Shown: positions 8,665 through 11,306 of the stretch, one piece after another
Layout of the letters: each line of letters opens with the position of its first letter
Position numbering within the stretch: position 1 is the first letter of the stretch
IMG/VR virus record: IMGVR_UViG_3300042293_000272
Coordinates: 1-31,488 of that record
DNA: 31,488 nt
Strand: one strand, 5' to 3'
Source: a virus
Made by a program: the position numbers and the translations under genes
The notes under the pieces: model-generated
The model's input: only the letters and a program-made list of their open reading frames with translations
Told to the model about the DNA's origin: nothing
Databases searched by the model: none

Positions 8665-8694
8665 TTACTAACTTTACACCTCATGGTTTAGGTT

Positions 8695-8729
8695 CTGCGC
8701 TGCTCGAAAGGGTGGCGCAGTTTTTTTTT
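8695..8729 (+). terminator. Strong intrinsic terminator with a GAAA tetraloop
   Basis: CTGCGCTGCTC (8695-8705) pairs with GGGTGGCGCAG (8710-8720) over 11 positions, including three G-U pairs, around a GAAA tetraloop (8706-8709). Nine T follow (8721-8729). This is the most stable hairpin noticed in the window and ends the operon that begins at 6880. A TAACTTTA box at 8670-8677 with TTG upstream could also make this the 3' end of a small RNA, which is speculation. Confidence 0.88.
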
Positions 8730-8733
8730 GGGT

Positions 8734-9019
8734 GAAAATATAGGGATGTATAAGGGAGGTATAAGGAAGGATTTTTTGTAAGTACTTAAAAATCAATTAG
8801 GTTAGGGATATAGGGGTAAAAAGGAACTACTTTGATATTCCTACAAATAAAAAAATAAAAAAAGTATTTATATATATATTTTTATTATTTCTTAAATATT
8901 ATAACTTTTATCTTATAATCCCTATACCTTTTGTTGTAAGTCAATAGTAGTAAGACCTGAGAGGTATAAGGTAGAACTAAATTCTATCCACTACCTATCT
9001 TATATCCCTATACCTTTTT
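8734..9019. other. Putative replication origin: iteron-like repeats flanking an AT-rich core
   Basis: This gene-free stretch carries repeats with the core TATAGGGATnTATAAG in both orientations. One + strand copy lies at 8735-8754 and a weaker one at 8803-8823. Two - strand copies (read on + as TATCTTATA then CCCTATACCTTTT) lie at 8909-8932 and 8996-9018. Extra GGTATAAGG boxes occur at 8759-8767 and 8963-8971. The inverted clusters flank a segment of almost pure A/T (about 8843-8916) that could unwind. The position directly before the primase-helicase gene supports an origin or a Rep-binding control region. No experimental proof can be seen. Confidence 0.55.
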
Positions 9020-9035
9020 AAAAAATAAAAAATGT

Positions 9036-9064
9036 GTTGTATATTAAAATTATTTGTATATTTG
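9036..9064 (+). promoter_or_regulatory. Bacteroidetes-type promoter of the replication operon
   Basis: TATATTTG at 9057-9064 matches the TAnnTTTG box exactly. A GTTG at 9036-9039 lies 17 bp upstream, slightly short of the ideal 19. Predicted start near 9069-9071, just at the first hairpin of the folded leader. Confidence 0.68.
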
Positions 9065-9070
9065 TGCATC

Positions 9071-9155
9071 GAAGCGTGGAAACTTCATAAAGAAATTTTT
9101 TTAAAAGCTACTCAAAAAAAGGTTATTCCACGCACCTTTTTAGAGTGGCTTTTTT
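9071..9155 (+). ncRNA. Structured 5' leader with predicted kissing loops, before the primase-helicase gene
   Basis: Hairpin 1 is GAAG (9071-9074) with CTTC (9083-9086) and an 8-base loop, CGTGGAAA. Hairpin 2 has an 11-bp lower stem, 9103-9113 with 9143-9153 (one G-U), and an 8-bp upper stem, 9116-9123 with 9134-9141. Its 10-base loop is TATTCCACGC (9124-9133). Loop 1 bases 9075-9081 are fully complementary to loop 2 bases 9126-9132, giving a possible 7-bp loop-loop helix. The lower stem of hairpin 2 runs into a T stretch (9150-9155), so it could act as an attenuator 18 bp before the ATG at 9174. I know no named RNA family that it matches. Confidence 0.6.
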
Positions 9156-9173
9156 CATTTAAAAAAAAATAGT

Positions 9174-11306
9174 ATGATTAGCTATTGGAAAACAGTTAAG
9201 GATGTAAATAATCCTACAGAAGAAACTACTATTGATATTTTTATTGATAGGGTTAAGAATGGTTATTGGCGTGAATTAATAGCACCGATACGAAATGAAA
9301 AGGACAAAGAAAAACAAAAGCCTTTTAAAGCTAAATTACCAGCGGTAACAATTGGTGGGAGCTTTAAAGAACGAAACGAAAAATCTTTATTAGCACATAG
9401 TGGATTTATGTGTGTGGATATAGATAATTTTTCCGATAATACAGCACTAATAAACGATCCGTATACATATTGCTGCATGAAGTCGGTCGGTGGTAATGGT
9501 TTTGCCGTAATAGTTAAAGTAAATCCTGACAAACACAAAGATTGTTATAGATGGATAGAAAAATACTATCTAACAAAGTTTGGGATACTAGTAGATTCCG
9601 CTCCAAAAAATGTAGCAAGTGCAAGGTTTATTACTTTTGATGAAGATTTATATGTAAATACTAAATCTAAGAAAGTACAAACTTTAATAGACAAGCCTTT
9701 AAGACCAAAATCGCTGGCTATAATAGTACCAAGTACCGAAGTTGGAGAATTAGTTGACCAAGTACAAACAAACGTCTTAGAAGAGTATAACGATTGGTTA
9801 AGTTTTGGATTATCTTGTGTTGAAACATTTAACGAGGATGGCAGATCATACTTTCACAAAATGAGTAGTTTGTCTTCAAAGTACGACGCTAATATTTGTG
9901 ATAAAAATTATGATTATTTATTAAAAAGAAAAGGACAAGGAATAACAGCAGGAACTTTTTATTTTTATTTAAAACAAGCGGGTGCGGATATTTCTAAATA
10001 TGCAGCTAATAAGACCGTAAACGAAATTGCTTTAAATAAAAGGATTGGAGTTTCTAAAAGTGAATCGGCTATTGAACTTTCTAAAAAACAAAATTTAACT
10101 ATTGAGGAGGCAAAGGAATTAGTAGATGAAATTTACGAGAGAAACGATATAGATGTAAGACATCAAACGGGTACGGAAAATATAATTATTAATGTTTCAA
10201 ATTTTATATTTAAACAACATCAATTAAAAAAAAATATAATAACTCATAAGTACGAAATAGATAATAAAGAAATGCAAAAAGAACATTTTAACTCTTTGTA
10301 TTTAAAAGCTCGTATGACATTTGATGACAACGCAGTTACGTATGATTTAATAGAAAGAATAATTATGTCCGAAGCTACTTTGGAATTTAATCCTATTCAT
10401 CAATATATTGAAGCCAATAAGCACAGAAAAACAGATGGTAATATTGAAAAAATGATTAATACTATTGATACTCGTAGCTCAATGAAAAAAACATGGATAC
10501 GAAAATGGCTTATTTCAATTATTGCTTGCTACGATGGATATCCTGTACGTTCTGTTTTATGTTTGACGGGCGGTCAAAATACGGGTAAAACTGAATGGTT
10601 TAGAAGATTATTACCAGCAGGACTTCAAAAGTATTACGCTGAGTCAAATATGGATAAAGGTAAAGACGATGAACTTTTGATGTGTGAAAAATTGATTGTT
10701 TTGGACGATGAAATGGGAGGTAAATCTAAACAGGACGAAAAAAGATTTAAAGAACTAACTTCTAAAAATTTCTTTTCACTACGCGCTCCTTATGGTAGGC
10801 ATAACGAAGATTTTAAAAGATTAGCTTTATTATGCGGAACGACAAACGACAAAGCAGTAATTAATGACCCAACGGGTAACACACGTATATTACCTATTGA
10901 AGTAGATACTATTGATCATGACTTGTATAATTCAATTGATAAGGATGAATTATTTATGGAGCTATATAGAATGTACACTACGGGCGTTCAATGGCAACTT
11001 GACAAGGATGAGATTAGTATCTTAATGGAAGTTTCACAAGAATTTGAAACTATACCTTTTGAAAAGGAATTAATACTTAGATTTTTTGAAGTTCCAACAG
11101 AAGACGAAGCTTATCTCTTAATGACAGCAACAGCAATTAAAGACGTTATAGAGTGTAATTCTAAACAAAAAATAATGTCAATGAAAAACTTTGGCACTAT
11201 GTTAAAAAAGATTTTTGGCGACCAGGTGCAAAAGAAAGACGGATGGAAATATAAGGTAAAAGAAAAATATGGACTTAAAGATGAAACAAAATCATGGATA
11301 GAATAA
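9174..11306 (+). CDS. Replicative primase-helicase (BT4734-like PrimPol N-terminus, VirE-type SF3 helicase)
   Basis: This 710-residue protein has three parts. Residues 1 to about 165 form a primase-polymerase-like domain: CVDIDNF with D82 and D84 as metal ligands, a G-N-G-F segment at 107-110 and H121. Residues about 200-275 resemble a primase C-terminal helical domain (EEYNDWLSFGLSCVETF). Residues about 390-640 are a VirE-type helicase with Walker A GGQNTGKT (466-473), Walker B LIVLDDE (507-513), a sensor segment (LLCGTTND) and GNTRILPIEV. Such proteins prime and unwind DNA at phage and plasmid origins. A structured leader and an iteron-like region lie just upstream, consistent with it acting there. 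It is followed by replication and recombination genes. Confidence 0.88.
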   Translation: MISYWKTVKDVNNPTEETTIDIFIDRVKNGYWRELIAPIRNEKDKEKQKPFKAKLPAVTIGGSFKERNEKSLLAHSGFMCVDIDNFSDNTALINDPYTYCCMKSVGGNGFAVIVKVNPDKHKDCYRWIEKYYLTKFGILVDSAPKNVASARFITFDEDLYVNTKSKKVQTLIDKPLRPKSLAIIVPSTEVGELVDQVQTNVLEEYNDWLSFGLSCVETFNEDGRSYFHKMSSLSSKYDANICDKNYDYLLKRKGQGITAGTFYFYLKQAGADISKYAANKTVNEIALNKRIGVSKSESAIELSKKQNLTIEEAKELVDEIYERNDIDVRHQTGTENIIINVSNFIFKQHQLKKNIITHKYEIDNKEMQKEHFNSLYLKARMTFDDNAVTYDLIERIIMSEATLEFNPIHQYIEANKHRKTDGNIEKMINTIDTRSSMKKTWIRKWLISIIACYDGYPVRSVLCLTGGQNTGKTEWFRRLLPAGLQKYYAESNMDKGKDDELLMCEKLIVLDDEMGGKSKQDEKRFKELTSKNFFSLRAPYGRHNEDFKRLALLCGTTNDKAVINDPTGNTRILPIEVDTIDHDLYNSIDKDELFMELYRMYTTGVQWQLDKDEISILMEVSQEFETIPFEKELILRFFEVPTEDEAYLLMTATAIKDVIECNSKQKIMSMKNFGTMLKKIFGDQVQKKDGWKYKVKEKYGLKDETKSWIE

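Follow-up and report, generated by a model that had tools for sequence, protein, structure and literature searches.

In pT181-type attenuators, a loop–loop contact with a separate antisense RNA decides whether a terminator forms, and HEARO/IscB omega RNAs are structured RNAs that adjoin HNH endonuclease genes. The phage P4 immunity leader carries seqA, the CI RNA and seqC in that order before the replication genes, and in Gifsy-1 a promoter-proximal terminator yields the short RNA IsrK while read-through yields the mRNA (PMC4825925).

Here we analyse a leader RNA of about 90 bases that often heads the replication and homing-nuclease operons of Bacteroidetes-type phages, whose early gene control is poorly known. 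Judged from its sequence and that of its relatives, it looks like an undescribed on/off switch for early genes. The starting point was an uncultured virus record of 31,488 bases, referred to below as the window. As we propose for this leader, a loop–loop contact would decide terminator formation as in pT181-type attenuators, but here the RNA's own 5′ hairpin would serve as the partner and there is no antisense promoter. Like HEARO and omega RNA, the leader is a structured RNA that adjoins HNH endonuclease genes. However, the nucleases here are of the NUMOD4-HNH or GIY-YIG (T5orf172) kind and the leader also precedes primases; identity with HEARO/omega RNA was rejected, as there is no Rfam match.

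With IsrK the leader shares the logic of a promoter-proximal terminator that gives a short RNA and of read-through that gives an mRNA, and its short RNA could reach the start region of that mRNA. It differs in having no sequence or Rfam match and a different host phylum, and in that trans action is here only hypothetical. With the P4 immunity leader and P1-type C4 RNA it has in common that it is untranslated, lies before replication genes, combines short complementary segments within a single transcript, would terminate prematurely and, in a subclass only, has an A-B-C order. Unlike them, it contains its own intrinsic terminator, the loop of which supplies the complementary strand; it pairs through kissing loops of 6–9 nt, was not seen in prophages here and matches no Rfam model (P4 details in part from PMC4825925).

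Searches against Rfam 15 (4227 models) passed the gathering threshold for tRNA only, with weak sub-threshold matches at chance level, and we found no description of such a kissing-loop leader in the literature. The suggestion that this RNA is undescribed, made in an earlier sequence-only reading of the window, is supported by the negative Rfam result. A conserved scaffold with variable, self-matching loops before unrelated replication systems and homing nucleases would constitute a general early-gene switch, and its orthogonal loop pairs would provide a naturally occurring set of attenuators distinguished by their pairing words alone. Because the leader is also present in cultured Flavobacterium phages, it is directly testable.

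Architecture of the leader in the window

The window virus likely infects Flavobacteriales, as its terminase is 53% identical to terminases of Flavobacterium psychrophilum phages and relatives of its primase occur in Cellulophaga, Nonlabens and Flavobacterium phages. A search for the primase in genome contigs returned no relatives. The leader lies on the + strand in a gap (8665–9173) that is bounded upstream by a gene with its own terminator and downstream by the primase-helicase gene (9174–11306, +). This first gene 3′ of the leader has BT4734-like_N, PriCT_2 and VapE-like matches in Pfam and a PHROGs match to DNA primase at 7e-108. The leader stands at the head of the replication operon, where the sequence-only reading had placed it.

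The promoter is of Bacteroidetes type (9037–9064, +), with TTG at 9037–9039, a 17-nt spacer and the −7 box TATATTTG at 9057–9064, which is kept in homologues. The box fits the Flavobacterium consensus TTTG/TAnnTTTG, in which the G of the box lies at −5 (PMC6847099). Transcription is therefore predicted to start near 9069, so that hairpin 1 would begin about 2 nt from the 5′ end of the RNA. Hairpin 1 (9071–9086, +) consists of GAAG (9071–9074), the 8-nt loop CGTGGAAA (9075–9082) and CTTC (9083–9086). An A/U-rich linker with the recurring motif AAGAAAUU (9087–9102, +) leads to hairpin 2 (9103–9155, +), a two-part intrinsic terminator. Its 11 + 8 = 19 pairs span 9103–9153 and enclose a small internal loop and the 10-nt loop TATTCCACGC (9124–9133), and its 3′ side ends in a T run (9150–9155).

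The first 7 nt of loop 1, CGTGGAA (strand A, 9075–9081, +), are exactly complementary to TTCCACG in the terminator loop (strand B, 9126–9132, +), and the match extends to 8 bp if G9074 frays. The assignment of both strands draws on the fold, on word counts and on the covariation described below. Two hairpins behind the promoter, a 7-nt loop complementarity and a 19-bp terminator stem had all been claimed from the sequence, and each is exactly as claimed. The limits given for the element, 9071–9155, capture the hairpins correctly, but the unit starts at the promoter box, 14 nt earlier.

The terminated RNA is predicted to be about 87–90 nt long, nearly all of it made up of the two hairpins and the linker. 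None of 200 dinucleotide shuffles folds as well (z = −3.1). The two loop sites are the only places in the window where the 8-mer GCGTGGAA and its complement are found, once each, and a search of the window genome for further copies of the loop words as a trans target found none outside the leader except single 7-mers. In terms of sequence architecture, a stable hairpin with a U run is present between promoter and start codon, as in an intrinsic terminator or attenuator.

Loop pairing in close and divergent homologues

Among the seven viral primase relatives found first, L003 has the leader in the same place and is the nearest relative to carry it. Its loops read CGTGAGA/TCTCACG versus CGTGGAA/TTCCACG in the window, so two base pairs are changed on both sides and both changes are compensated. 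DNA patterns in which stem 1 was fixed and loop 2 free, and then loop 1 free too, yielded about 16 additional records with the full unit, including the loop pairs CCTGAGAA/TTCTCAGG and CCTGGAA/TTCCAGG. About 10 of the 27 viral pattern matches (for example L021–L024 and L026–L030) were set aside as chance matches with neither terminator nor loop complementarity.

In an alignment of 11 sequences (A2), the seven kissing pairs are paired in 100% of cells, and three of them have both sides changed. Over the whole structure, double-change cells number 23; shuffles give 7.8, and sliding the partners leaves no more than 4. Both halves of the terminator stem covary, whereas stem 1 is invariant in this first group. 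Covarying stems, together with the 19-bp stem and T run, support the earlier proposal of an attenuator-type terminator.

The leader is also found in the cultured Flavobacterium phages mumin6-4 (two copies) and filifjonk9-1; blastn for further leader types among cultured phages gave nothing. By blastn, the filifjonk9-1 leader matches the second mumin6-4 copy at 91% identity. Its loop 1 reads GTGAGACG where mumin6-4 has GTGGAACG, and loop 2 carries the matching change. The pair repeats the GGAA/GAGA swap seen in both loops when the window is set against L003, independently and in a clearly different leader type. Loop alleles thus differ between near-identical leaders in both pairs, and the complementary changes in the two hairpin loops are compensated, as expected of a kissing loop. 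In the closest pairs the excess of loop changes is striking (4/14 versus 2/68 for the window and L003), which raised the possibility of diversifying selection on the loops. We do not claim it because the whole set does not show it: overall, loop positions diverge no faster than the rest (0.19 versus 0.18).

More divergent members were recovered with a covariance model (R1) built without the kissing pairs. Its weaker matches lie in L008, L007/G006, two more copies in G019, a second copy in L011, and L002. In each member found in this way the loop word is unrelated and stem 1 differs, yet the loops are complementary, and the divergent pairs read GTGGAAG/CTTCCAC, AGTACAG/CTGTACT, GGGCAG/CTGCCC, GTAGTGC/GCACTAC, TCGGAA/TTCCGA and GTGGTAG/CTACCAC. 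Uncompensated loop changes in homologues had been named as the observation that would speak against a loop–loop contact; homologues found without using complementarity gave the opposite outcome, which supports the contact.

We also scanned DNA flanking the genes for relatives of a VirE-type primase, a DnaB-like ATPase and a primase-helicase-like protein without a Pfam match, replication proteins of three unrelated types, using a descriptor that combines the promoter box, a hairpin and a terminator hairpin with a complementary loop. Matches inside open frames or without a start codon behind them were dropped. Over all pattern, covariance-model, blastn and descriptor searches, the family comes to 28 distinct leader types, which between them carry 27 loop words and about 21 different stem-1 pairs. 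In every member, loop 1 and the terminator loop are complementary over 6–9 nt, independent of sequence. Accepted members score 23–33. Dinucleotide shuffles of 1.6 Mb gave six descriptor matches, the best at 21, and a score of 23 came up once in two shuffled rounds of the primase set; there could be a chance match among the lowest-scoring members (23–24).

The strongest single test of the loop pairing is a scan that is blind to complementarity. It returned 33 distinct promoter–hairpin–terminator leaders with a two-peaked distribution of loop–loop pairing, and at least six contiguous pairs are present in 16, compared to about 0.8 expected from permuted loops. The linker is also shared, in that a motif of the AAGA(A/C/T) type occurs in 21 of the 28 distinct linkers, where shuffles predict about 7; it is possibly a protein site, or a strand that docks into a helix groove. 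A leader peptide seen by eye in the GAAG type (GTG-NNN-ACT-TCA-TAA) is not kept in other types and was discarded. The leaders form a genuine kissing-loop RNA family of Bacteroidetes-type phages, with repeated compensation between the loops and no counterpart in Rfam.

Probable attenuation and competing readings

Sequence comparison identifies a recurring unit of host-type promoter, 5′ hairpin, A/U linker and intrinsic terminator, with the first gene of a replication operon, or a free-standing homing nuclease, directly behind it. The likeliest job of such a unit would be attenuation, and we lean towards the view that the element is a promoter-proximal, cis-acting kissing-loop attenuator. Prefix folding with RNAfold, a secondary-structure method that cannot score the kissing contact itself and gives no rates, assigned a loop 1:loop 2 pairing probability of 0.86–1.0 in every member tested, from RNA cut just behind loop 2 until the 3′ arm emerges, and in the full RNA the terminator wins (nested P 0–0.14). 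This modelled pattern reads as the signature of a co-transcriptional choice. A true loop–loop contact appears to be favoured over two exclusive folds, since stem 1 with its 7–10-nt loop is kept despite sequence change.

Under the attenuation model, hairpin 1 would form as the polymerase leaves the promoter, and loop 1 would capture the emerging terminator loop at a point when the terminator's 3′ arm has yet to appear. Capture would delay or block terminator closure and allow the polymerase to read through. If loop 1 were occupied, or if there were time for the 3′ arm to invade, the terminator would close and release the RNA of about 90 nt. We infer this direction of control; because the geometry allows the loops to kiss while the terminator is closed, the contact might just as well promote termination, or it could be relevant to RNA stability alone. 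Nothing was found that would flip the predicted switch, whether a ligand, a protein or a trans RNA. Differences among loops would allow several copies in one phage to avoid cross-pairing. In G019, the loop pairs of the three copies are mutually incompatible (contiguous pairs 8/2/2, 2/7/4 and 2/4/7), and copies that pair only with themselves argue for cis action that avoids cross-talk.

Alternatively, the terminated RNA of about 90 nt could be a trans regulator, like the CI RNA of phage P4 or IsrK of Gifsy-1. Its loop 2 would pair with loop 1 of nascent leaders and, where the read-through mRNA has a start-codon copy, with that copy too. The outcome would be autoregulation, or immunity to phages that share the loops. 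We regard this as unlikely. Strands A and B (loop 1 and loop 2) are present in all members, and in 5 of the 28 types a further copy of loop 1, C, lies immediately before the start codon (AGTACAG, ATGCAG, CGTCGAA, GGGCAG and ACGGTYAA). Four of these types have at least six Watson–Crick pairs, a count reached in 0 of 2000 permutations. Because the copy adjoins the start codon, loop 2 could also cover the translation start in these types, and their order A-B-C-replication genes is like the P4 order seqA-CI-seqC-replication genes (PMC4825925). The differing loop alleles of near-identical leaders (window/L003 and mumin/filifjonk) are likewise consistent with trans action.

Counter to this, most types have no C copy, the window included, the loops are already paired in cis, and loop positions overall do not diverge faster than the rest. 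Nor was a prophage in need of immunity seen in two scans that were biased to the GAAG type: among 84,980 bacterial genomes no pattern match passed the leader descriptor, and among 296 Bacteroidota genomes R1 gave one weak match without the architecture. In a further form of trans action, which we also regard as unlikely, the self-complementary loop pairs may be diversifying specificity tags of an RNA switch that is widespread in Bacteroidetes phages. The terminated leader RNA would then sense its own copy number in trans and shut down the replication genes only of phages with the same loop word, making up an immunity or superinfection system of lytic phages that consists of RNA alone and is also carried by homing nucleases.

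It is doubtful that the RNA is just a small terminated RNA of great stability whose loops kiss each other, or a strong terminator at an operon boundary, with kissing that protects the molecule and no regulation of the gene behind. The layout would suit such a role, as only about 2 nt precede hairpin 1 at the predicted 5′ end, the 3′ end is made by the terminator and nearly all of the RNA is structured. However, a strong promoter followed at once by a terminator with no gene between would have little point unless read-through matters, and in nearly all members the next start codon follows within a few to a few dozen nucleotides.

A DNA-level inverted repeat, with two repressor operator half-sites that fall in hairpin loops by chance, would also lead us to expect matched change of both copies. 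It is very improbable, as the two stems whose loops hold the words covary independently, loop 1 measures 7–10 nt, and the words differ between copies within one genome. We give almost no weight to a replication primer or ColE1-like copy-number control by antisense RNA: the iteron-like repeats at 8737–9014 suggest an origin adjoining the leader, but an antisense −7 box (TAHHTTTG) faces into 0 of the 28 leaders (8 of 109 in the control), which leaves no sign of a ColE1/pT181-type countertranscript, members also precede nuclease genes away from replication genes, and L005 and L006 keep the repeats without the leader. The copy-number switch envisaged in the sequence-only reading remains a conjecture, given the members that stand before HNH and GIY-YIG nuclease genes, which have no part in replication, and the lack of a leader in these two close relatives.

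Genes and repeats around the leaders

As first or early genes, VirE/BT4734 primases stand behind the leaders of the window, L003, L019 and L123, and a Prim-Pol/DUF3987 protein behind that of L032. The L010 leader is followed by DUF6291 proteins and then a DnaB-like ATPase, and that of L199 by helicase-methylase genes. In L002, L012, L015, L016 and L025 it is followed by NUMOD4-HNH nucleases, often with a primase or helicase next. A subgroup with the linker AAGAACTTTT, comprising both L066 copies, L177 and L179, lies directly before NUMOD4-HNH or GIY-YIG (T5orf172) nucleases and apart from the primase; mumin6-4 copy 1 is similar with another linker. Free-standing genes of these two nuclease kinds with a kissing-loop leader of their own were seen at L177 3983, L179 10116, L066 591 and 3701, and L072 11160, where the T run nearly touches the start codon.

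The leader is not universal: among 80 VirE loci, a large share of them truncated, a credible match came from only about 7. In L005 and L006, whose primases are 87–90% identical, the promoter is present and the leader is replaced by another small gene. Because such close relatives do without it, the leader is, on this comparison, dispensable for the replication operon.

Several minor features were also noted. In the window, a second strong terminator at 8695–8720 (stem CTGCGCTGC.., T9 tail) closes the upstream operon. The A/T-rich stretch at 8737–9014 contains iteron-like repeats of ATCCCTATACC and its complement, with five matches (at most two mismatches) in 280 bp, and also carries AGGTATAAGG twice. 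These repeats are partly kept in L003, L005 and L006 and are possibly a replication origin. Directly behind leaders of the A-B-C subclass, at L007 2826 and L215 5440, are tiny genes that begin MKKVVVVVVLTTLSSC and are lipoprotein-like by eye.
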